In this document: positions 1 to 20,683 of the stretch, piece after piece | Numbering within the stretch: position 1 is the stretch's first letter | Layout: each line of letters starts with the position of its first letter | Origin: a virus | DNA length: 20,683 bases | Reading direction: 5' to 3' (one strand) | IMG/VR virus record: IMGVR_UViG_3300034073_001225 | Location: 1-20,683 of that record | Notes under the pieces: generated by a model | Seen by the model: only the letters and a program-made list of their open reading frames with translations | Databases searched by the model: none | What the model was told of the DNA's origin: nothing | Position numbers and translations under genes: made by a program

Positions 1-1684
1 CTTTGAGTGTCCAGCCTTTGATTTCTTTGCTGCGGAGTCTGATGGTGATGATGTCGTCTAGGTCTTCGACTATGAGGTTGACGGTTTCTGGTACCCAGCT
101 GATGCGTGTGTGGGTGCGTTTGAGGGTGAGGCCATCGTCGGTCTTGTCGAGTCGGTACACGATGTCTACGTCATCGTTCTTGGCTGATGAGCCTCGTTGG
201 CCTTGTTTCTTTCCTCCGTCTTTGCCTGCGTGGTCTGTGCGTACGCAGGCGACGTTGGCTCGCTTCAGGCTGAGTCCTGTGGTTCGTGCGAACTCACGGT
301 AGGAGTCTGCTGAGTTCTCTTCCCCATCGATGGCGCGTCCTGTGGTGTCAATCACTACGACTTCAGCCTTGGTTAGTTCTACGAGCTTCATGATGGCTGA
401 GGCACCTTCGGTGGTGTTGAGTGGGGGGAGGTTGGGGATGAGTGCGTAGTGGAGGTGGGAGAGGTCGTCGTCTTCTGTGTAGCCGAATTGTTCTAGGCGT
501 TCGTAGAGGTCTGATTCAATCATTTCGTAGTCGAGGTACAGACAATGGATGGCTGGTTGGGCTGGTTGTCCGAGGATGGGTTTGCCGGATGCGAGTGCTG
601 CAACGACGTTGAGTGTGAGCCATGACTTTCCTGTTTTTGCTCCAGCGAATAGGGCTGTCTGACGGCCTTTGGCGATGAGTGGTTTGGCTAACCATTCTTC
701 GGTTGCATGTTCGAGTGACCAGAATGTTTTCCAATCCACAAGCATCGACAGCATCTCGTCTGGTGTGGGGATTGGTGTGACTGGTTCAGGTTTGCCTTCA
801 GCGGTGGCTAGGAAGGCTTGGGAGGCTTGTTTCCAGTCGCCTCCGTGTTTGGAGGCTGCATAGTATCCGAAGCGGTTGTAACCACCTTCTGGTAGCCAAG
901 GGATGCTGCTGGTGAAGACGATGAGTGCGTCGTTTCCGTTGTGTCCGATGGTGGCTGATGTTCCGTCTCGTGGGTCTTTGCCTGGTCTAACCCAATGCTG
1001 TTCACCATGACGGTCAGTCTTAGCCAATGTCCAGCCATCAGGGATGAGCAGTTCTTCCCACGTTGTCTTCGCACAGTAGCGGGCTGAGGGGGTGTTGGGG
1101 TCGGTTAGAAATGAATCGGGTTGACCGACGGGTTTGACCATCTCTGGTTGTTTGGTGAGTAGTTTGACGAGCCAGTCTGGTGCTTTGGCTGGTTTGCGTT
1201 CGTGTGGGCTGAGGCCATGTTCCCATTGGTAGGTGCGTCCGTTGGGGTGGATGGTTGGGGCTGCGAGGACTTGTCCTCCTTCACCACGAATGTCGAGTCC
1301 TACTCCGAGGCGTGAGCCTGCGTCGTTGCGGATGTCTTGGTCACAGTAGAAGTACAGGTGTTGTCCACCGGTACCCGTGATTGCTGTGACGGTTTCGGGG
1401 AGTTGACCGTACTTTTCTTGTAGGTCGTGGAGTGTGTCTGAGCCTTTGTATTCTTCACGGTCATCCACGTCGAGGACAAAGATGCGTCCGTGTCGTGTTG
1501 CTCCTGTTGCGATACCTATTCCGTAGCCTGAGTATTGGCTGGTGAACCAGTCGTTGACAACGTGGATGTCGTTGCTGGCTTTGTTTTGCCATTGTGCCAT
1601 CGGTGGATACTTCTGACCAGGCTTAATCGGGATAACCCTGATACCAAGTTCAGCAAGTTTGATTGCTTCTTCACGCATTGTCAT
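1..1684 (-). CDS. Primase-polymerase/RepA-like helicase, 3' end cut by window edge
   Basis: About 561 residues are visible and the frame is still open at base 1. The N-terminal ~175 residues match the bifunctional primase-polymerase (archaeo-eukaryotic primase) fold: an acidic D-V-D-D motif at 72-75, a GGQH motif with H109, and L-D-I-R-G with D131. The second half is a RecA-like ATPase of the RepA/AAA_25 type: Walker A GAKTGKS at 348-354, Walker B EVVVID ending at D446, and T-D-H-A-G at 483-487, followed by a Gly/Lys-rich stretch. It probably primes and unwinds DNA at the phage replication fork. Shine-Dalgarno AGGAGG lies 4 bases before the ATG at 1684; a second ATG at 1678 has 10-base spacing and could be the true start. 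Domain families are recognised from motifs; the helicase polarity cannot be told. Confidence 0.9.
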   Translation of the reverse strand, partial: MTMREEAIKLAELGIRVIPIKPGQKYPPMAQWQNKASNDIHVVNDWFTSQYSGYGIGIATGATRHGRIFVLDVDDREEYKGSDTLHDLQEKYGQLPETVTAITGTGGQHLYFYCDQDIRNDAGSRLGVGLDIRGEGGQVLAAPTIHPNGRTYQWEHGLSPHERKPAKAPDWLVKLLTKQPEMVKPVGQPDSFLTDPNTPSARYCAKTTWEELLIPDGWTLAKTDRHGEQHWVRPGKDPRDGTSATIGHNGNDALIVFTSSIPWLPEGGYNRFGYYAASKHGGDWKQASQAFLATAEGKPEPVTPIPTPDEMLSMLVDWKTFWSLEHATEEWLAKPLIAKGRQTALFAGAKTGKSWLTLNVVAALASGKPILGQPAQPAIHCLYLDYEMIESDLYERLEQFGYTEDDDLSHLHYALIPNLPPLNTTEGASAIMKLVELTKAEVVVIDTTGRAIDGEENSADSYREFARTTGLSLKRANVACVRTDHAGKDGGKKQGQRGSSAKNDDVDIVYRLDKTDDGLTLKRTHTRISWVPETVNLIVEDLDDIITIRLRSKEIKGWTLK

Positions 1685-1721
1685 TATCCCTCCTACAGGA
1701 TTGGTTTGTTGAGTGTAGTTG

Positions 1722-1973
1722 TTATTCGTCTTCGTCTTCGTCATAGCGGTTGTTGAATGACCTGGCGATCCGATACTTCTCTGCTGCGCTCGCTGATTCG
1801 AGTAGGCCGAGACTGGTTGAGGCGGTTTGATTGCGTAGGGTGGTGACCCAGAATGTTTGGTCTCCTGAGATGCGTTCGATGTTGGCGATGACTACATAGG
1901 AGGTGCAGAGTCCTTCTGCGTTGGCTTCTATGTATTCTGCGATTGGGTCTTCATAGTCATTCGTCAAAGTCAT
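1722..1973 (-). CDS. Unknown small acidic-tailed protein (83 aa)
   Basis: No family is recognised. The protein starts MTLTNDYEDP, has a beta-rich middle (SYVVIANIER, TFWVTTLRNQ) and an Ala-rich helical part, and ends in the acidic run DEDEDE. The ATG at 1973 is chosen; an in-frame GTG at 1985 would add four residues (MKRW). It lies just before the primase-helicase gene and ends 37 bases from it. It overlaps the end of a possible 30-aa ORF upstream by 17 bases. The acidic tail could mimic DNA or contact a basic partner, but that is speculation. Confidence 0.65.
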   Translation of the reverse strand: MTLTNDYEDPIAEYIEANAEGLCTSYVVIANIERISGDQTFWVTTLRNQTASTSLGLLESASAAEKYRIARSFNNRYDEDEDE

Positions 1974-5265: not shown

Positions 5266-5293
5266 ACCATAGCAGGTTGAACTACTTTGTCAA
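5266..5293 (-). promoter_or_regulatory. Sigma70-type promoter for recombination operon
   Basis: On the minus strand TTGACA (5293-5288) is followed after 16 bases by TATGGT (5271-5266). The -35 is a full consensus match. Transcription would begin near 5259, leaving a leader of about 35 bases that contains AGGAGG before the exonuclease ATG at 5224. It lies in one of the few true gaps of the window. Confidence 0.75.
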
Positions 5294-5316: not shown

Positions 5317-5670
5317 TTACAAGGTTTGGTTGGGTTGGTCAAGCATGAATAACAGTTCTGCCCAAACCTTCGCAGGCATCACCGCATACCAATCATCCAC
5401 ATTCGTTGACCCCCTACGCTTAATAATGACCGTACCAGTCCACGCTTTAGCGTTCTCCATCTCGACTTCAAGTTCACGCAAATAGCCTGGAATGTCAATC
5501 CGCTTCTCGTTCTTAACTTCGATGCAGACTCCAGGCATCCCGTCAATATCGCCTCTGTCGTCTTGCCATCCGGCACGACTGCGTTCAGCGTGAATCCAGC
5601 CAAGTTTGCGCAACCATTTCGCAACCGCTAACTCTGCTGCGGAACCTTTACGCTTCTGTGATGATGTCAC
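5317..5670 (-). CDS. PD-(D/E)XK endonuclease, Holliday-junction-resolvase-like
   Basis: This small 117-aa nuclease has E13 in a K-G-S-A-A-E-L helix, D41-I-D43 in the RGDIDG turn, and E51-V-K53 in the CIEVKNEK strand. The layout E...D...ExK is that of Hjc-like resolvases and related VRR/PD-(D/E)XK enzymes common in actinophages. It likely resolves branched DNA before packaging or acts in recombination. Its start lies 23 bases inside the WhiB gene and its stop precedes the exonuclease promoter, so it closes the regulatory operon. Substrate is inferred from family, not shown. Confidence 0.7.
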   Translation of the reverse strand: MTSSQKRKGSAAELAVAKWLRKLGWIHAERSRAGWQDDRGDIDGMPGVCIEVKNEKRIDIPGYLRELEVEMENAKAWTGTVIIKRRGSTNVDDWYAVMPAKVWAELLFMLDQPNQTL

Positions 5671-5950
5671 CTGTACGCCTCCTAGACCGTTTCAACCTTT
5701 GACGCTCCATCGTAGTCGTACCACCCCAGATGCCTACCTCGTCGTTGTCTAACGCAAACTTGAGACAGATTCGACGCACGTTGCAACCAGCACAAAACAG
5801 TTTCGCATCAGCGATTGCGTGAGGTGAGCCTTCGTTGAAGAACAGTTCGGTTTCGCCTCTGCATCGTGCCATTTCCTGCCAGTCTGGGCGTTGTGGTCTG
5901 AAGGTGTTGTCACCATCTGACCACATGTCTACGACATGACCGCTGCTCAT
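5648..5950 (-). CDS. whiB: WhiB-family iron-sulfur transcription regulator
   Basis: The 100-aa protein has four Cys in the WhiB spacing, C30, C53-x2-C56 and C62, which bind a [4Fe-4S] cluster. The turn G73-I-W-G-G77 and a basic C-terminal tail (RQRLKRSRRR, 84-93) used for DNA or sigma-factor contacts are also present. WhiB proteins are confined to actinobacteria and their phages, so this is the strongest host marker in the window. In mycobacteriophage TM4 such a protein acts as a dominant inhibitor of host WhiB2 and blocks superinfection; the same role here is inference. Its ATG overlaps the preceding stop (ATGA). Confidence 0.95.
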   Translation of the reverse strand: MSSGHVVDMWSDGDNTFRPQRPDWQEMARCRGETELFFNEGSPHAIADAKLFCAGCNVRRICLKFALDNDEVGIWGGTTTMERQRLKRSRRRTGDIITEA

Positions 5951-9942: not shown

Positions 9943-10103
9943 TAGTTGTCCTTATTGGTTAGTGCGCCGATGAAGTGAAGAACGAGAGCTGCGATAGTGA
10001 GCCAGATCACGATCTTTTGTAGCCCACCAGAGAGCGTCAGGATGGTGGTGATTGATGCTGCGATTGTCCATATCAGCGCATGGAACTCACCCCAAAACTT
10101 CAT
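9942..10103 (-). CDS. Two-span membrane protein (53 aa), lysis accessory
   Basis: This ORF starts MKFWGEFHALIWTIAASITT and has hydrophobic helices at about 9-26 and 30-48 (IVIWLTIAALVLHFIGAL), with a short polar C-terminus (TNKDN). Its ATG overlaps the stop of the Thr-rich gene (TGATG), and its TAA overlaps the holin ATG (TAATG). Size, two spans and position directly ahead of a holin suggest a second holin, antiholin or pinholin. No family is recognised. Confidence 0.75.
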   Translation of the reverse strand: MKFWGEFHALIWTIAASITTILTLSGGLQKIVIWLTIAALVLHFIGALTNKDN

Positions 10104-11548
10104 CACTTAATCCTTCGACTCGGTGCAGGGGCTACCGTCAAGAATACAGCACCTAACGCAATCAACGCACGACGAGTACCAACAGGCACAGTCGAGTTGA
10201 GTGGAACATAAGTGTCAGCGAAACCTTCAAAAATATTCAGCACAGATTCAAACGCTTTACGCACTTCTTGGGGTGCTTCCTGCACCGCTTCAACTACCGC
10301 TTCGGCTTCGTCGGGGCTGAGTTCGGTTGGGGTGATTTGGGTGAAGAGTTGTTCGGCTTGGTTGGGGGTGATGTTTTCTAGGACGGCTGGGCTGGTGATG
10401 AGGAGGGTGGCTTGGCTGGTGTCTAGGTCTTTAGCCAGTACTTCATCCACGATGGCTTCTATGGCCTCTGTGGACGCTTCTGAGAGGGCTTCTAGTGTGT
10501 CTAGTAGTTCTGTTTGGGTGAGCGGTTTTGGTTCGTCTGTGGGGGCTTGTAGCGTTGTGGTCACATCAGGTTCAGATGTGGTTACGGGAGGGACGGTTGA
10601 TGTCGTTGTTGGTGGATTTGTTGAAGTTGTGCTGGTTGTTTGTAACGGAGGCGGGAGCGTTGTGGTGGGGGCTGGTTCTGGTTCCGTTGTGGTGGTTGTC
10701 GTTGTTGTTTCGGGAACAGTAGAGGTCGTTGCCGGTGGAACATAAACCGTCGTGGTCGTTGTTGGGGCAACATAGACCGTCGTGGTCGTTACTGGTGGAA
10801 CATAAACCGTCGTGGTCGTTGTTGGGGCTACAGTCGTTGAGGTACTTGTCGTCGTTGAGCTAGTTGAGGTAACCGTTGAAACTGTTTCTTGGATTGTTGT
10901 TGACGTTTGTGGTGGTTCCGTTGTGGTTGATGGGACGGATGTTTGAGGAAGACTCGAAGTCGTAGAAGTTGTTTCTTGAACTGTCGTAGTAGTCGGGTTG
11001 GTGACAGGGACAGTCGTTGACGGGACAGTAGAAGTAGAGGTCGTCGTCGTTGTTGTGGATGAGGTTGTAGATACCCATTCACCCAAGCCTAATGTCAACC
11101 CCGTAATCGTCAGCAGACCTGGTTGGCAGCATGAGTCAATCGAGAACTGTCGGAACGCAAACACATCCCCAGCCTCAACCGTCACCAGCTCTGATCCGGT
11201 GGCATTGTTCTCATTCGTCAGTTGTGTGACAACACCATTAAGGATAATTTGTGGTGGGTCATACCAAGCCCCATCAGTCGTCTGATACTCCCATTGGAAA
11301 CCGAGTTCCGTTGTGTCCTCTGGGATGATGGCCTGCACCTGCACCCAATGAGACTGACCAGCACACGTCCCACCATCAGCACCCGTCAACCTAAACCCCG
11401 CCTCAACCTCCTCAACCTGTCCACCCTCAACAGCGAGGCAAGACTTCGAGAACTCCCACACACCCAAACCGTCAGCCTCAGCTGATGATGATGTGAAAAG
11501 GAAACCTAAAAACGCAGGTAAAAAAACTAGCCAGCGTGAACGGAACAC
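10103..11548 (-). CDS. Secreted Thr-rich membrane-anchored surface protein
   Basis: The 481-aa protein has a signal peptide (1-25, ending SSSAEA), an ectodomain to about 155 with several Cys (one Cys-Cys pair in DSCCQPG), and a Thr/Ser/Pro/Val stalk from about 160 to 345. An acidic helical domain (about 345-440) and a C-terminal hydrophobic helix (about 455-475, ALIALGAVFLTVAP) close it, with a basic end SRRIK. This is a mucin-like stalk-and-anchor plan, unlike a virion fibre. It is transcribed just ahead of the holin and endolysin. Roles could be host-surface masking, exclusion or lysis support. The start is GTG at 11548 with no clear Shine-Dalgarno. The stalk contains three exact-length 30-bp repeats. 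Confidence 0.8.
   Translation of the reverse strand: MFRSRWLVFLPAFLGFLFTSSSAEADGLGVWEFSKSCLAVEGGQVEEVEAGFRLTGADGGTCAGQSHWVQVQAIIPEDTTELGFQWEYQTTDGAWYDPPQIILNGVVTQLTNENNATGSELVTVEAGDVFAFRQFSIDSCCQPGLLTITGLTLGLGEWVSTTSSTTTTTTSTSTVPSTTVPVTNPTTTTVQETTSTTSSLPQTSVPSTTTEPPQTSTTIQETVSTVTSTSSTTTSTSTTVAPTTTTTVYVPPVTTTTVYVAPTTTTTVYVPPATTSTVPETTTTTTTTEPEPAPTTTLPPPLQTTSTTSTNPPTTTSTVPPVTTSEPDVTTTLQAPTDEPKPLTQTELLDTLEALSEASTEAIEAIVDEVLAKDLDTSQATLLITSPAVLENITPNQAEQLFTQITPTELSPDEAEAVVEAVQEAPQEVRKAFESVLNIFEGFADTYVPLNSTVPVGTRRALIALGAVFLTVAPAPSRRIK
10739..10828 (-). repeat. Three tandem 30-bp repeats in the Thr-rich stalk
   Basis: Three units of 30 bases (10739-10768, 10769-10798, 10799-10828) share the core accgtcgtggtcgtt. 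The first and third are identical; the second differs in a few bases. In frame they encode the ten-residue unit TTTTVYVPPV and variants. Unit number is likely to vary by slippage, changing stalk length. Confidence 0.85.
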
Positions 11549-12220: not shown

Positions 12221-13483
12221 TCAGGTCAACGCATTCGTAGAGTCCATGACCCCAAACAATAAGTCGTCAAGCAGGAACGCATAAACCAAATCAGCCTGAC
12301 CCAACCCCAAAAACACCTCATGACGTGAAGGCGAAATCTGATGACGAATTGACTCAACAAAAACATTCTGACGAATCACCGAAGGCGAACCAACAGCGAA
12401 CCGTTTCTCCACCGTCAAAATATCACCAATCTCCAACGAAGCGATCAGCTCCTGCTGAGCAGAAGATAACCCGTTCAACAACACACTTGTCTCATTGAAC
12501 ACCACCTCCGGTGTCTGATACCTGTCCAACAAAGACACAGCCAAAGCCGAACCAGCAGCATCATCCACCAACGGCAAATTATTTAAAGCAAAGTTCTTAA
12601 TCCCATACTCAGCCTGCGAAGCCGTACCATTCGCCACACTCAACACCGACGACCCCAACACCTGAACCGAAATACGATTCAACACAGTCTCAGCCCCATA
12701 CAAATTATTCAACGAACGAATCGGAATATCCGTCACCCCAGTCCCACCCAACACCGCCACAGCCGTCCCAAATGAAGTTTCAATACGAGCATCAAACACC
12801 AACATCCCATCACGGGACGCATAGAACCGACCATTCTCCGAAACCTGCAAAGCCTGCAAAGCCTCCAACACATTCGTATTATCCTCATACGCAACCGTCC
12901 CAACCGTTGCCAACCCAGGATTAATCTCACGCAACGCAGTCGACCAAGCCACCTCATTCCTCGACAAAATCTCATCAACCCGCTCAGACGTCAACTGTTG
13001 TGAAGGATTAAACCCGACAAGGTTCGTCTGAGCTAACTGTGCCAAAGCATCAACAGCGAGAATCTGTGCAGATGACAAGTTCGGCTCATCGTATTCAATG
13101 TTCAAGTCATAGACATAACCCTTAAACATCGCAGCTGTACCAGCCGAACCACCATAAACCTCAATCGCTCGACGTGGCGCAATACCTAAATCCCCCTGAT
13201 ACCAAGGTGAGTCTGTGTTCAACGGGTCAAACGACCTACCAGACGCACGGTCATCAGTGAGGATGGCAAGCGTTCCGGTGTTGAACGTATCCAACTGATT
13301 AGACCGTCCACGATTGATCGTGATGTTCTGAACATACTCAGTAATATCTACGAACTCTGTAGAACCATCCAACACAGCGTTAACATCATCAAGTTCGCTG
13401 GTATCCAAAATAAAACGGTTAGCAATAAAACCGACATCCAAATTGACCTTAAGGGTTTCCCCCCAAACCGCTTGCCTAGCCAT
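12221..13483 (-). CDS. Minor tail protein (tail hub/tip)
   Basis: A 420-aa protein in the slot directly after the tape measure, where Dit/Tal or mycobacteriophage-type minor tail proteins sit. It shows an N-terminal beta region with DITEYVQNITINRGRSNQ, followed by a likely DDRASGR-containing domain, and has the feel of the gp27/hub-like family that shapes the tail tip. The ATG overlaps the tape-measure stop (TAATG at 13485-13481). No enzymatic motif or Cys cluster is seen. The tail role is secure from context; the exact subunit is not. Confidence 0.8.
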   Translation of the reverse strand: MARQAVWGETLKVNLDVGFIANRFILDTSELDDVNAVLDGSTEFVDITEYVQNITINRGRSNQLDTFNTGTLAILTDDRASGRSFDPLNTDSPWYQGDLGIAPRRAIEVYGGSAGTAAMFKGYVYDLNIEYDEPNLSSAQILAVDALAQLAQTNLVGFNPSQQLTSERVDEILSRNEVAWSTALREINPGLATVGTVAYEDNTNVLEALQALQVSENGRFYASRDGMLVFDARIETSFGTAVAVLGGTGVTDIPIRSLNNLYGAETVLNRISVQVLGSSVLSVANGTASQAEYGIKNFALNNLPLVDDAAGSALAVSLLDRYQTPEVVFNETSVLLNGLSSAQQELIASLEIGDILTVEKRFAVGSPSVIRQNVFVESIRHQISPSRHEVFLGLGQADLVYAFLLDDLLFGVMDSTNALT

Positions 13484-15519
13484 TATCTAACGCCAACAAA
13501 GTTCCCGATAGAACCAAACGAGAACTGACTACCAGTAAAGTTCAAGTATTCACGCAAGTACTGGTCAATCTCCTGACCGACCTCAATCCCACTCGCACCC
13601 AACCCAGCATTAACCTCGATATTCACATTCGGCATACCGAACTGTCCACCAGGCTGATAAACACCGCTCGTCGCTAAAGTTTGTGCGCCAGTAACCATAG
13701 CCATCGGATTAGGCATCCCACCCAACACCTTCGGATACTTAGCAATCAAATCAGCCGTAGCCTGCAACGCAGCATTGAACTCCTCCTGAGCGTTCTTCGT
13801 ATTAGTGACCGCATCCTCCCAAGCCTCATACGCCGAGACCTGCGCACGAGTCGCATCCTCAACTTGTTCCAACGCTCGGTCATAAAGAATCGAACCAACA
13901 GTCGCACCATAAATCGCCTCATTCAGAGACCGTTGCTGGTCATTCAACTCCTTAGCCGATCTAGCCTGCGAATCAGTAGCATCAGCAACCGACAACTTCG
14001 CCTCAGCCAAATCAATCTCAGCACGACGAATCTCGGTAGCAGAAGACTCAGGGTCTTTACGAACCTCAGCCAGTTTCTTCTCAGCATCAGCAACCGAGAA
14101 CACAGCCTCCTCAACCGCATACGTTGCTCGTTCCTGATTGCGTTGAGCCTTAGCCAACTCAGCCTGCGCAGCCAACGCCTCCGGTGAACCAGCACCAAAG
14201 CCACGCTCAATCTGAGCCAACTTAGCCTTAGCATCAGCCAAGTTCGTATTCGCATCAGTCAACGAAGCAAGCGACTTACTCTCAGCCTTCCCAGCCTTAC
14301 TCAACCGATCCTGCAAACGCTCAGATACACCTAGGCTCTTGTTGTATTCATCCAACTTTTGTGTTGCTGTCTTCAAAGTCTTAGTTACCTTACCTAAGCC
14401 TTTAGTGTCATCAGTCAATTCCTCAACTGAACCCTTGAAACCAGACTGCTCGTTAATGGTGTCACGAATGCTCCGTTTGTAATTATTGATAGGTACAGCG
14501 ATTGCATCAAACTTTTTGCCCACCTCATCAACATTGATGTAGTCGTTGGTTGCTTTGTAGAAGTCTTTTGCTGCGCCTACAAAGTCACGACTGAGAAGTT
14601 TGAAGTTTGCGCTAGTGATGTAATAGGCCTTGGCTATCACGTTTATAGCGGTTGCTGCTGCAACAGCAATCGCTTTGAATACTCCTGCTACGCCTGTTCC
14701 GGCTTTGCCTGATTCGAATAGGAGTTGCTGGAAACCAGCGACCAAACCTTTTTCACCGATGACTGTGGTGACACGTTGAATCGCTGGGGCAACATTTTTA
14801 ACTAAGAAGTCTGTGAACTTTTGTAGATATGGCAGAAGGGCAGCACCAATGGTTTCTAGAATCTCACCGAATTGACCAGACAAAATCTTTAACTGTCCGC
14901 TGAAAGTTCCTGCAGCGGTTTCTGCAGCACCGCCGAACTGATCGTTCAATAGGCCAACAACCTTTTCAAAGTCTTTGGACTTCTTGATGTTGTCGTCAAG
15001 TGGAATACCTAAACGAGATAATGCTGTGAACTGTCCTTGGCTGGCCTTAGCCAACGCCAATGTGACCGACGCAAGGTCTTTACCTGTGGCAGCAGAAATA
15101 TCTTGAGCAGTATTGAGCAGGTCTTGAGATTGAGTCAGGTCACCAGTTGACCGAACTAGTAAGCCCAGCGAAGTTCTAAGCTCCACATCCGACGTTCCGG
15201 TGCGAAGTTGTGTAACCGAAATGTACCGTTCAGCCGAAGCCGTCAACGCCTCATTGGCTCCAAAGGTTTTCTCCAACTGACGCTGTAACTCTGCCTGCGA
15301 TGCTTGGTCTTCGATCGCAGCCTTAACCGATTTAGTTAATCCAACAGCGATAGCACCGAAGGCTGCGGTAGCCCCAACTGCCAAAGCACCAAACAAAGGT
15401 GAGGTCTTAGAAACCTGATTCCCGAAACCCTTGATGTCACCGGATAGAAGTTTCAGCCCTGCTTTGGCTGCAGCGGTATCAGAAATAAACTTAACAACGA
15501 ACGTCCGCTCACCAGCCAT
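13483..15519 (-). CDS. Tape measure protein
   Basis: The longest gene in the window, 678 aa. It starts MAGERTFVVKFISDTAAAKA, has a hydrophobic segment at about 41-61 (PLFGALAVGATAAFGAIAVG), then a helical region typical of tape measures (TSLGLLVRSTGDLTQSQDLL, LASVTLALAKASQGQFTALS). A long charged coiled-coil stretch spans about 415-580. Tape measures set tail length at about 0.15 nm per residue, so the tail would be near 100 nm. It follows the chaperone and gp10-like genes, with one primase-like gene in between. No lytic enzyme domain is visible. Confidence 0.95.
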   Translation of the reverse strand: MAGERTFVVKFISDTAAAKAGLKLLSGDIKGFGNQVSKTSPLFGALAVGATAAFGAIAVGLTKSVKAAIEDQASQAELQRQLEKTFGANEALTASAERYISVTQLRTGTSDVELRTSLGLLVRSTGDLTQSQDLLNTAQDISAATGKDLASVTLALAKASQGQFTALSRLGIPLDDNIKKSKDFEKVVGLLNDQFGGAAETAAGTFSGQLKILSGQFGEILETIGAALLPYLQKFTDFLVKNVAPAIQRVTTVIGEKGLVAGFQQLLFESGKAGTGVAGVFKAIAVAAATAINVIAKAYYITSANFKLLSRDFVGAAKDFYKATNDYINVDEVGKKFDAIAVPINNYKRSIRDTINEQSGFKGSVEELTDDTKGLGKVTKTLKTATQKLDEYNKSLGVSERLQDRLSKAGKAESKSLASLTDANTNLADAKAKLAQIERGFGAGSPEALAAQAELAKAQRNQERATYAVEEAVFSVADAEKKLAEVRKDPESSATEIRRAEIDLAEAKLSVADATDSQARSAKELNDQQRSLNEAIYGATVGSILYDRALEQVEDATRAQVSAYEAWEDAVTNTKNAQEEFNAALQATADLIAKYPKVLGGMPNPMAMVTGAQTLATSGVYQPGGQFGMPNVNIEVNAGLGASGIEVGQEIDQYLREYLNFTGSQFSFGSIGNFVGVR

Positions 15520-15528
15520 ACGCCGATT

Positions 15529-16239
15529 CTACTCAATAACAGACAACCCATTCCGCAAAGCAACAAACTCATCAAGCATCGCATAATACAAAGCCTTCCC
15601 CGACAGGCCGTCCCATCGAGAAATATCTACAGGCGCATCCCACCAAGCATCATCCAAAATCTCTGAACCAGCACGACGCTGACGAGGCTGACGAACCTGC
15701 TTCGAGCGAGGCGAGACAGGATTGATGACAGGTTCAACATCCAACCTGAACGACGAATCCAACAACGCACCATGACCTTCATGGAACTCAAACGGCTGAT
15801 TTGGTGCATGTTGAGGGAGATAGAAAATACGAGCAGGGTCTTTAGTCTGAGGGTCACCGACCAACCCGATACGGTCATGCAACTCAGCCCACACCACACG
15901 CCACAACGAAGCAGGAACTTTCTCCGCTAACGGTAGAACCAGGTGATAGTGAGGATCATCTAAACGATGCGAATAGGTGGAATAGGCAAACCACTCCAAC
16001 CCATCAAGCCGTGCATGGTCAAACGCTTCACCGTCCATGTCCACAACCAATGCCTCAACAAACCTGACATTCCTGTTACCACGAGTCGTACCCTGGTCAT
16101 ACTCAACCGGAGACCACAACGCCCCCGCAGCCTTGACAGCATTCTCCTCATGGAACGACAACAGTTCTTTGAGTTGTTCCCAAGACGAAGCCAACGGCTT
16201 CGGATAAACAGACTTCACATTCTTAAACAGAACTGCCAT
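15529..16239 (-). CDS. Stand-alone primase-like (AEP-type) protein among tail genes
   Basis: The 236-aa protein has the archaeo-eukaryotic primase/Rep layout: V65-V-D67-M-D69-G acidic pair, H97-Y-H99-L-V-L-P-L histidine motif, and D134-P-A-R137-I-F-Y-L-P. These correspond to catalytic metal-binding residues and nucleotide contacts. No helicase or ATPase part follows. The C-terminal 60 residues have a basic linker (SPRSKQVRQPRQRR) and a helical end. It starts with AGGAGGAGG a few bases ahead, and a promoter-like pair lies at 16256-16283. It sits between a gp10-like tail gene and the tape measure, an odd place for a replication enzyme. It may be a mobile primase or a replication initiator. Confidence 0.8.
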   Translation of the reverse strand: MAVLFKNVKSVYPKPLASSWEQLKELLSFHEENAVKAAGALWSPVEYDQGTTRGNRNVRFVEALVVDMDGEAFDHARLDGLEWFAYSTYSHRLDDPHYHLVLPLAEKVPASLWRVVWAELHDRIGLVGDPQTKDPARIFYLPQHAPNQPFEFHEGHGALLDSSFRLDVEPVINPVSPRSKQVRQPRQRRAGSEILDDAWWDAPVDISRWDGLSGKALYYAMLDEFVALRNGLSVIE

Positions 16240-16255
16240 AACCCCTCCTCCTAGA

Positions 16256-16283
16256 AGGGTACAGGAAACCCAGCCAAAGTCAA
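16256..16283 (-). promoter_or_regulatory. Weak promoter-like pair before the primase-like gene
   Basis: On the minus strand TTGACT (16283-16278) is followed after 16 bases by TACCCT (16261-16256). The -35 is strong but the -10 matches only three consensus positions. The predicted start near 16249 leaves a leader of about 10 bases that still keeps AGGAGG. The 16-base spacing equals that of the two better promoters here. Confidence 0.35.
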
Positions 16284-16882
16284 GCCTTATCTTTTAAGGT
16301 GTTCAACACTCGCTGGATAGCGTCCAAATACTCCCTAGCGATATTCTCTTTTTCCTTACGGACAGTAGGCCAGAAGAAATAACCAGAACGCCCACGATGG
16401 CGCAAGAACTGGCTGGTATGCCCGCCACCCTTACGATACCCGTCACGAGACTCACCCTTTTTATTTACCGACCTAGCCCCAACAGAAGTCTTTAACCCTT
16501 TACCGAACTTGCCTCCACCGAACTCGGCGCCAAAGAACACATCACCCCTAGTCACCTTCCGCTTGCGCTTCCTGTTCGGGTTTGATTTAGAAACAAACGC
16601 AGAACTAGAACTCAAAGCAATCGTAGGAATACGGTCAGACCTAGCCTTCATTCCCTTCATCACCTCAGTTGCCTGACTGCTACGTTTCACAGACGTAGCC
16701 TCAGCCTTCGCTTTTTCAACTAGGTTTTGTGCCACACTCTGTGCAGCCTTACGCATCTCAGTATTAAATCTCTCGTCAGCCTTCGCAGCGTCACGCAAGA
16801 AGGCTGCGATACCGATAATTTGAACAGGGTCATTCCCACCAGTAATTGAAACCTGTCCTGCTCTACCTATCGCTTGCGCCAT
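16280..16882 (-). CDS. HK97 gp10-like tail/head-tail protein
   Basis: A 200-aa basic protein with a helical first part (AFLRDAAKADERFNTEMRKA), a very basic middle (KSNPNRKRKRKVTRG) and the motif F-F-G-A-E-F-G-G followed later by QFLRHRGRSGYFFWPTVRKE. FGAEFGG with H-x-GR-x-GYFFWPT is a signature of a small structural protein family in actinophage tail operons, related to gp10-like completion proteins. It lies just after the tail chaperone. Assembly into the head-tail joint or tail is inferred from position and motif. Confidence 0.7.
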   Translation of the reverse strand: MAQAIGRAGQVSITGGNDPVQIIGIAAFLRDAAKADERFNTEMRKAAQSVAQNLVEKAKAEATSVKRSSQATEVMKGMKARSDRIPTIALSSSSAFVSKSNPNRKRKRKVTRGDVFFGAEFGGGKFGKGLKTSVGARSVNKKGESRDGYRKGGGHTSQFLRHRGRSGYFFWPTVRKEKENIAREYLDAIQRVLNTLKDKA

Positions 16883-18874: not shown

Positions 18875-19540
18875 CTAGTTGATTGAAGCAAAGCCACGAT
18901 ACTGAACACCCTCAAGGCTGTAGTTCACAAACGGGTTCAACGAATACACCTGACATGAGTAGACATCCCACAACCGTTGCTTCATCGCTCGAAGGTGCAT
19001 CTCATATAAAGCCCAAGGAGAATCACCTGGCACATAACCATCCACCCTGTCACGCCCACCAAGCGAACCACAGTCAGCCCCAACAAGGACTATGAACTTC
19101 GCTCCCATGTGCGCTGCCAAGTGCATCGCCCCATGAATGCTTGATGAGCCGATAGTCAACTGTCCTGACAGCACAGCCCAATCTTTTCCATGAGGATCAA
19201 AGGTTGTTCCTGGTCTGCCGGTGCGAGTGCCGAAGGTGGTGATGTTCGGCATAAACCCACCGAACGACCCATCAGTTCCGTGTTCCCTTTCAGGGGTGAA
19301 AACACCGATACAGTCCTCACGCACAGCCTCACTCTTAGCGTCCTCGTGGTAATGGCTGAAACAGTAGTAACCCTTCAGCCCGAATACTGAGCCAACGAAG
19401 TTGACTGCGATGGTGAGTTTGTCGTCAAAGAAGTCTGGTGTCAGATAGTCGAGTGTTGCTCCTGATCCGAGAACATAGATGGTCTCGCCTTCATGCAGAT
19501 TCTCATAATCATCCATCGGGTCGTATTCTCTTAGTCCCAT
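18875..19540 (-). CDS. MptE/DUF115-like sugar or pterin-type transferase
   Basis: Starting MGLREYDPMDDYENLHEGET, the 221-aa protein has a Rossmann-type opening I-Y-V-L-G-S-G-A-T-L (21-30) with a loop to N47, then a later strand FIVLVGADCGSLGG. This is the pattern of the MptE-like/DUF115 family, some members of which act in sugar or surface-polysaccharide modification. The ATG at 19540 overlaps the GT2 stop by 10 bases; a longer in-frame start at 19600 would read through the GT2 gene. With two glycosyltransferases next to it, a glycan step is the best guess. Confidence 0.65.
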   Translation of the reverse strand: MGLREYDPMDDYENLHEGETIYVLGSGATLDYLTPDFFDDKLTIAVNFVGSVFGLKGYYCFSHYHEDAKSEAVREDCIGVFTPEREHGTDGSFGGFMPNITTFGTRTGRPGTTFDPHGKDWAVLSGQLTIGSSSIHGAMHLAAHMGAKFIVLVGADCGSLGGRDRVDGYVPGDSPWALYEMHLRAMKQRLWDVYSCQVYSLNPFVNYSLEGVQYRGFASIN

Positions 19541-20196
19541 CCCAATTCCCTTCTCCGTGTTAAATCCCAATGACCCGCATCGGGAAGACCTGACTGCCAT
19601 CGCATCGCATGAAGCGCAGCATTGGAGGCGAAGCTCTTGCCGTTGCGTTCCTGAAACTCTGGTGCCGAGTTAATCGTAGACGAGTTATCATGAACCACCC
19701 CAGCGTCAGAAGTCCAGAACTTTATATTCAACCGTTGCGCACGTTCCTGAAAATCGTTGTCCTCAAAATATGCGGGGACATAACACTCGCTGAACAACCC
19801 AACCTTGGCAACCACCTCAGACCCAATCCACGCACAACACCAACCAGGCTGAGCCTCAGTCAACGTCACCGAATCAGGTTGACAATCCTTGTAGAAAACT
19901 TCTAACTGTCCAAGCTCAAAGTACGCATCCGAGTTCAGCAGTATCCAGCCGTCAGCGTGAGGAGTTGCCTTGATGCCGAGGTTCCATGATGGAGCAACAC
20001 CGAGGTTCGTAGGCATTGACCAGACGTAATAGTTCTTTACATGGCGACGGTCAATCACCCAAGGGTAATCATGCAGGGTGGACTGCCCGCCGTTATCAAT
20101 GACGATGAGTGTTTCCACCGGATAGTCGATGGACTGCAAGCAGCGTTCTAGTAGGTCATACCTGTTTAGGACGGGGACGACGATGACTGGCACCAT
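19531..20196 (-). CDS. Family 2 (GT-A) glycosyltransferase
   Basis: The 221-aa protein has the GT2 layout: V32-I-D-N-G-G37 nucleotide-sugar turn, N-L-G-V-A-P-S-W-N-L-G-I at 64-75, N88-S-D90 in place of the D-x-D metal site, and F144-E-D-N-D148 for the catalytic base. The set resembles rhamnosyl- and related transferases. It overlaps the GT-B gene's end by 31 bases and the MptE-like gene's start by 10. The acceptor is unknown; virion or host-surface glycans are both possible. Confidence 0.85.
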   Translation of the reverse strand: MVPVIVVPVLNRYDLLERCLQSIDYPVETLIVIDNGGQSTLHDYPWVIDRRHVKNYYVWSMPTNLGVAPSWNLGIKATPHADGWILLNSDAYFELGQLEVFYKDCQPDSVTLTEAQPGWCCAWIGSEVVAKVGLFSECYVPAYFEDNDFQERAQRLNIKFWTSDAGVVHDNSSTINSAPEFQERNGKSFASNAALHAMRWQSGLPDAGHWDLTRRRELGWD

Positions 20197-20683
20197 GCAG
20201 TCAACTCCTTCATGATTGGCTTCCAGTAAGCGTCATAAACCTTGTCTGCTCGGTATTGGTCAGCAAAGGCCACAGCCTCGTCAGACACGCCTCTAGGAGC
20301 CTCGTAGGCGTCAATCAGAGCCTCTACGATGGACGGCACCTGTGGGGTGCAGAACCAAGACTTCTGATGACTATCCCAGAACGGCTGAATCGCCACAGCT
20401 GACCCAACCCCAACCAACTCAGGCTGAGCGGTGTAGTCAGAAACGATGACCCGTGTACCGCAGGCCTGAGCCTCGATAACAGGGATACCGAAACCCTCAC
20501 CCATCGAGCAAGCCAACAACACATCCGAAGCCGTGTACAACGCAGCCAACGCCTGCTGAGGGAAACCAGTCCGATACGCATACGGGTCAACAATCTTGTA
20601 TTGCTCAGGCTTCACACCACACGCATCCAACAGATGCACAAGGTTGATACCACCCATCGCACCATCACGCTCCGTGTGTAGAT
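20166..20683 (-). CDS. GT-B glycosyltransferase (GT4-like), 5' part cut by window edge
   Basis: The C-terminal half of a GT-B enzyme, open through the window edge at base 20683, so the ATG at 20657 is only an internal Met. It shows L-Y-T-A-S-D-V-L-L-A-C-S-M-G-E-G-F-G-I-P followed by VIEAQACGTRVIVSD, the nucleotide-sugar binding site of GT4-type glycosyltransferases; the two Glu are the E-x7-E-like pair. It heads a sugar cassette with the GT2 and MptE-like genes downstream. Confidence 0.85.
   Translation of the reverse strand, partial: LHTERDGAMGGINLVHLLDACGVKPEQYKIVDPYAYRTGFPQQALAALYTASDVLLACSMGEGFGIPVIEAQACGTRVIVSDYTAQPELVGVGSAVAIQPFWDSHQKSWFCTPQVPSIVEALIDAYEAPRGVSDEAVAFADQYRADKVYDAYWKPIMKELTAWCQSSSSPS

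Follow-up and report, generated by a model that had tools for sequence, protein, structure and literature searches.

The window, as we call the whole 20,683-nt stretch of viral DNA analyzed here, encodes on its minus strand a stand-alone 236-residue protein of the AEP primase fold (AEP236), which has conserved metal- and nucleotide-binding residues and no fused helicase, lies in the tail-gene block behind a promoter of its own, occupies the same slot throughout its clade, and is retained by phages with two unrelated replication modules. We propose that AEP236, as a lone AEP domain with its catalytic site intact, would act on phage DNA as an accessory nucleotidyl polymerase or primase, that its transcription starts within the late operon at a host-type promoter belonging to the gene itself, and that it would be neither a part of the tail nor the dedicated primase of the phage replisome; we give this reading as a whole a probability of roughly 0.5. 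A non-structural role on nucleic acid, with expression from the gene’s own promoter, is fairly probable in itself; that the particular task is repriming, the filling of gaps, or the bypass of lesions is put forward tentatively. Catalytic activity, early expression, and a job on DNA are what we infer from the features described below. The gene, its neighbors, and the gene bearing on the host are as follows:

15529..16239, minus strand: AEP236, stand-alone AEP-fold protein of 236 aa (ORF, PHROG profile, fold model)
16280..16882, minus strand: p200, gp10-like gene, 5′ neighbor of AEP236 (ORF and profile matches)
13483..15519, minus strand: tape measure protein of 678 aa, 3′ neighbor of AEP236 (ORF)
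5648-5950: WhiB gene (PF02467, E 4e-18)

Read along the minus strand, the genes are ordered head-tail adaptor, tail terminator, tail tube, p96, p200, AEP236, tape measure, and p420, with 40 nt from the p200 stop codon to the AEP236 start and 9 nt from the AEP236 stop codon to the tape-measure start. The first-pass annotation had placed a primase-like gene here, flanked by a gp10-like gene and the tape measure, and had left out the strand; the reading frame and both neighbors are real, although the gp10-like label of p200 is weakly based (PHROG 5, E 0.35; profile match to phiPsal1_017-type proteins, probability 90.8 over 48 columns). Since the GC content (0.505) and GC3 (0.502) of the gene match those of the window, recent horizontal insertion was dropped as an explanation by composition. 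The WhiB gene, a type of gene used elsewhere as a marker for an actinobacterial host (PMC6802176), and the relationship to Pontimonas phage phiPsal1 both point to an actinobacterial host, and the phage is a member of a common and abundant freshwater group. Elsewhere in the window, positions 10103-11548 encode a protein of 481 aa whose long repeats are rich in Thr and Ser and which is probably a fiber or surface protein; the tail protein p420 (12221-13483) exists as two allelic types (77-95% vs. 26-33% identity) among otherwise near-identical phages; and two glycosyltransferase-like genes (GT2 and GT4 types) with a third, weakly MptE-like one lie at 18875-20657, just before the head-tail adaptor, where phiPsal1 has GT1 and GT2 genes at the matching place.

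The likeness to AEP primases that had been proposed from the letters alone was borne out by both profile and fold. AEP236 matched the PHROG 9765 ‘DNA primase’ profile over residues 31-163 (E 2.6e-16), and a 39%-identical ortholog matched a PHROG DNA primase at E 8.7e-22. Searches of Pfam, NCBIfam, and PADLOC with AEP236 gave no match; neither the BT4734-like AEP model PF08800, for which the T4-type homolog L168 reached a sub-threshold E of 0.014, nor Prim-Pol PF09250, the family of the replicase at the left edge of the window, was matched over the cut-off. The best phmmer hit among PDB sequences (E 0.14) was an unrelated synthase and was taken as chance. An AlphaFold (AF2) model built from 34 homologs had pLDDT >90 over most of the core (residues 1-160), followed by a disordered linker (165-197) and a C-terminal helix. 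Its best PDB match was the AEP domain of S-2L PrimPol, a cyanophage protein (Foldseek E 3.5e-5, probability 1; VIA-align Z 9.7, rmsd 3.3 over 136 residues at 13% identity), and the next were HP0184, CAPP, PriS, and LigD, all AEPs; the model has the fold that defines the AEP superfamily. The catalytic residues of S-2L PrimPol are Y63, E85, D87, H118, D146, and R157 (PMC8065100), and mapping by spacing against these, without coordinate superposition, suggests the following roles in AEP236:

16101-16099, minus strand: Y47, putative steric gate
16041-16039, minus strand: D67, putative motif I
16035-16033, minus strand: D69, putative motif I
15945-15943, minus strand: H99, putative motif II
15855-15853, minus strand: D129, putative motif III
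15831-15829, minus strand: R137, putative motif IV

Among the 34 homologs D67, D69, D129, D134, and R137 are invariant and Y47 is kept in >90%. Motif I (hhhDhD/E) reads LVVDMD, containing the two invariant aspartates, and motif III (hD/E) is represented by D129, spaced like D146 of S-2L. The first-pass annotation had singled out D67-x-D69, H97-x-H99, and D134-P-A-R, all of which are present in the protein; D134 is nevertheless disfavored as the metal ligand of motif III, D129 being likelier because its spacing agrees with that of S-2L PrimPol (PMC8065100), and H97-x-H99 was dropped as a family-wide motif, these positions being His only in the tail-slot clade and mostly Lys and Arg elsewhere among the 34 homologs. 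Motif II (sxH) is allowed to vary from family to family; H99 occurs in all tail-slot orthologs and is mostly Arg in the T4-type homologs, its motif II place following from spacing only. A motif II His and a motif IV Arg mark PrimPol-PV1/All3500-like proteins, and the invariant R137, too, is assigned to motif IV only by spacing. Judged from its sequence and model, AEP236 is very probably an AEP-fold enzyme with an intact active site, without the C-terminal region of its longer relatives. In the 39% orthologs (L175, 4003-4725; L192, 5977-6699), a four-cysteine motif, C-x-C...C-x2-C, follows the AEP core and precedes the last helix; the window’s clade lacks it there.

The slot between p200 and the tape measure is common to ∼100 viral contigs, with AEP orthologs of 39-100% identity. 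In every one of the 80 contigs with a protein at least 91% identical to AEP236, p200 directly adjoins the gene, and the tape measure lies on its other side wherever the contig reaches; a further search yielded orthologs of 39-73% identity (L175, L176, and L192; L212; L177-L190) in the identical slot. No isolate with the gene turned up in the phage collection that was searched. This subfamily of p200 was found only in phages having the AEP gene. The AEP protein is conserved better than both of its neighbors (81 close sequences), with dN/dS of about 0.08-0.15 against orthologs of 87-97% identity. Its pairwise distances, which are descriptive because pairs are non-independent, track those of the head-tail adaptor (Pearson 0.95) and the tail terminator (0.97), and in rank they do so as well as these two virion proteins track each other; by this measure, AEP236 is inherited with the virion module. 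In one contig (L003) the window’s adaptor, tail tube, p96, and AEP have counterparts of 97-99% identity, whereas the two genes flanking the AEP gene, p200 (56-58%) and the tape measure (33%), have been exchanged.

In phiPsal1, which has the same module, gene 017 abuts the tape measure with no AEP between them. A further 80 loci were fetched with adaptors 45-57% identical, of which 34 span the whole interval; in all 34 of these distant relatives the tape measure directly adjoins a protein of 170-290 aa, with no AEP present, and no AEP match was found anywhere in 16 gene-less records searched whole. In the suggested comparison of gene order, the slot is empty in 34/34 distant relatives and occupied throughout the clade; this is not the outcome named as refuting in the first-pass annotation, namely the gene in one slot in all relatives with a structural role shown, as the slot is common to members of the clade and the catalytic residues persist. 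Morons, as known from tailed phages, have their own promoter, are set between two late genes, and are absent from related phages. The moron-like insertion raised in the first-pass annotation stands insofar as AEP236 is absent from 34/34 relatives, in which its flanks abut, and has its own promoter (100/106 orthologs); morons are sporadic, however, whereas AEP236 is old, fixed within its clade, and co-diverges with virion genes, and a terminator of its own is not established.

A tree of structural genes groups phages of the G015 type, which carry the AEP gene, with the gene-less ones, leaving a single clean gain in one clade unsupported. Their placement is explained by block exchange, because the tape measure of G015 is mosaic, with residues 4-262 matching that of the window (41%, E 2e-47) and the last 78 residues matching gene-less phages (up to 68%). 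This mosaic makes it probable that p200, the AEP gene, and the N-terminus of the tape measure travelled together as a block; ancestral gain with losses is a possible alternative. That the gene is strictly linked to p200 and the N-terminus of the tape measure counts against an accessory polymerase, as it would also fit a tail-linked role. In one such role the AEP would be built into the particle along with the tail or neck and be ejected together with the DNA, filling gaps or priming on the incoming genome, as suggested by the position of the gene between a gp10-like gene and the tape measure, by the seeming mobility of these three elements as a unit, by retention whatever the replication module, and by the examples of packaged polyvalent proteins near late genes and of conjugative primases transferred with DNA (PMC5512222). 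We consider delivery in the virion rather unlikely: the gene of a virion component would not need a promoter of its own, yet AEP236 alone in the late region has one, and neither a packaging signal nor a fusion to a virion protein was seen. The conjugative primases TraC1 (RP4) and SogL (R64), which are delivered with DNA (PMC5512222), are comparable to AEP236 as primases in a DNA-transfer setting outside the replisome, but they have the Toprim fold, unrelated to AEP, and delivery of AEP236 is a candidate only. That the virion module includes a minimal AEP polymerase, delivered or separately expressed, which is inherited with the gp10-like and tape-measure genes and would serve as a ‘starter’ or repair polymerase for incoming DNA and be interchangeable across unrelated replication systems, is an unlikely, if wider, version of the same thought. 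Catalytic exaptation of the domain for tail assembly or regulation would also suit the fixed place beside the tape measure and the linkage to p200; it is very improbable given that the metal-binding residues and the motif IV Arg are invariant even at 38-39% identity, and that 34/34 relatives with the same tail module do without the AEP.

A phage primase would be looked for in the replication module, most often as the neighbor or fusion partner of a helicase, and the window has such a protein:

2..1744, minus strand: Prim-Pol + AAA_25 replicase, open at the left edge (PF09250, E 4.8e-39; AAA_25, E 1.6e-21)

By these matches the primase-polymerase/helicase already recognized at the left edge is the phage’s main replication protein, and it is of an AEP family other than that of AEP236. 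A second, helicase-free AEP, which had been called unexpected, indeed accompanies the Prim-Pol/AAA replicase in the window and in six other contigs (G001, G003, G006, G016, G017, and G021), and Prim-Pol was found in 0/16 records without the tail AEP. The strict coupling that these counts made attractive at first is broken by G015. The ends of this 33.8-kb genome overlap over 132 bp with one mismatch, which marks it as complete; it carries a 39% ortholog and an O-like/DnaD-like initiation protein (PHROG 391, E 1e-25; PHROG 2514, E 3e-21) but has no Prim-Pol and no AEP-like ORF besides the tail-slot ortholog. Two contigs without Prim-Pol, G007 and G009, are uninformative, both ending before that gene. 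AEP236 could nonetheless be the dedicated partner of the Prim-Pol/AAA replicase, with two primases sharing the work at one fork, as the joint occurrence of the genes would have it; we hold this to be distinctly unlikely, because G015 keeps the tail AEP with its O/DnaD-like initiator and because the AEP gene never adjoins replication genes and co-diverges with virion genes. G015 likewise leaves the previously suggested second replication mode unsupported as such, the AEP gene being kept there without a Prim-Pol replicase, and a plasmid-derived initiator, also suggested, found no backing among plasmid matches, which are 23-32% identical and on megaplasmids or in larger proteins, none of them a small initiator. 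As far as gene content goes, the tail-slot AEP follows the tail block, not the replication module, and it serves phages that probably rely on the helicase and primase of the host as well as phages that encode these functions themselves. Its retention with either machinery suggests an accessory job on DNA, as in the preferred reading, not a tail part or the main primase.

The region upstream of the gene contains the strong Shine-Dalgarno sequence and the promoter-like pair with 16-nt spacing that the first-pass annotation had reported:

16256..16283, minus strand: AEP236 promoter, −35 TTGACT (16283-16278), 16-nt spacer, −10 TACCCT (16261-16256)
16242..16252, minus strand: Shine-Dalgarno AGGAGGAGGGG, 2 nt before the ATG at 16239
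5266..5293, minus strand: exonuclease-operon promoter TTGACA-16-TATGGT, with the architecture of the AEP236 promoter
16241..16260, minus strand: possible hairpin of the −10 region and Shine-Dalgarno in read-through mRNA, predicted from pairing

A single site of this kind could be chance, yet it recurs: a rule of TTGAC(T/A), exactly 16 nt, and TACCCT was satisfied in 100 of 105 upstream regions of AEP orthologs (57 of 62 distinct ones), with 0.045 expected in shuffles. The five strict exceptions hold look-alikes such as TTGAT-16-TACCCT or, in the 39% clade, TAGACA-17-TAGAGT and TAGACA-17-TATGGT. Applied more widely, the rule found the site upstream of 100/106 AEP genes, of none of 11 other late-region genes (37-98 loci each), and in 0/34 gene-less relatives over the 150 nt preceding the tape measure; by this survey, AEP236 carries the sole conserved promoter of the tail block. 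Such a promoter within a late operon would allow AEP236 to be made at a time or level other than that of the tail proteins, and since the exonuclease operon has a promoter of like architecture, AEP236 may be expressed together with the early set. Terminator-like matches inside the gene were generic and no more than shuffles give, and none was established between the AEP236 promoter and the tape measure, so that this promoter may also drive tail genes, a point against the preferred reading. The invariant −10 TACCCT is able to pair with the Shine-Dalgarno in read-through mRNA in 20/20 distinct variants, reminiscent of the hairpins known to hide this element in T4 late genes, with a z of only −0.98 against dinucleotide shuffles; a transcript from the AEP236 promoter would lack the 5′ arm of the hairpin, which we offer as an idea only. 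The moron-like setting, the promoter, the absence from distant relatives, and the independence of the replication module would also suit a function in host takeover or counter-defense, in which the AEP domain would consume nucleotides, make a signal, or act on host nucleic acid or defense proteins. This is quite improbable, as no match to PADLOC models or known anti-defense families was found and the orthologs are steady in sequence, unlike fast-changing counter-defense genes.

Outside the clade, AEP236 is closest to stand-alone proteins of 305-370 aa from T4-type phages and to the N-terminal part of an AEP-DUF3987 protein of 906 aa. The T4-type ‘DNA primases’ (C48C1 WJE87912; L167, L168, L169, and L196) resemble AEP236 in matching PHROG 9765, in being encoded by an unfused gene, and in sharing D67, D69, D129, D134, and R137; they differ in length (∼305-370 aa), with roughly 100 extra conserved C-terminal residues, in having Arg in place of His in motif II, and in lying in a replication cluster beside DNA polymerase B, UvsX, and a DnaB-like helicase. 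The 906-aa protein (L166), from an element in a Chloroflexi MAG, is 41% identical to AEP236 over its N-terminal 157 residues but is fused to a DUF3987 putative helicase (E 2e-107) and is encoded near an integrase-like gene, without a tail-gene setting. Both settings speak for primer synthesis by the family together with a partner helicase. The longer C-terminus was either lost by AEP236 or never present in it. The closest solved fold, the AEP domain of S-2L PrimPol (6ZP9; All3500-like, PrimPol-PV1 supergroup), has comparable catalytic spacing; S-2L PrimPol, unlike AEP236, is extended by PriCT-2 and VirE-type helicase domains, and it is the sole possible replicative polymerase of S-2L (PMC8065100). 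For priming, most AEPs depend on an accessory domain such as a helix bundle (PMC12205980). No such domain was recognizable in AEP236, which may therefore need a partner, extend chains instead of starting them, or only extend or transfer nucleotides; this weighs against the preferred reading.

In the literature searched, with partial coverage, nothing relevant was found on primases encoded among tail genes or present in virions. AEP236 is, by sequence, a catalytically intact AEP that belongs to the tail block in evolution and gene order, not to the replication module. If active, it would be a natural minimal AEP, and it would mark an early or accessory step of DNA synthesis, not described in that literature, in abundant freshwater phages. 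Two AEPs of different families in a genome of ∼32 kb would also provide a simple test case for phages with more than one primase.
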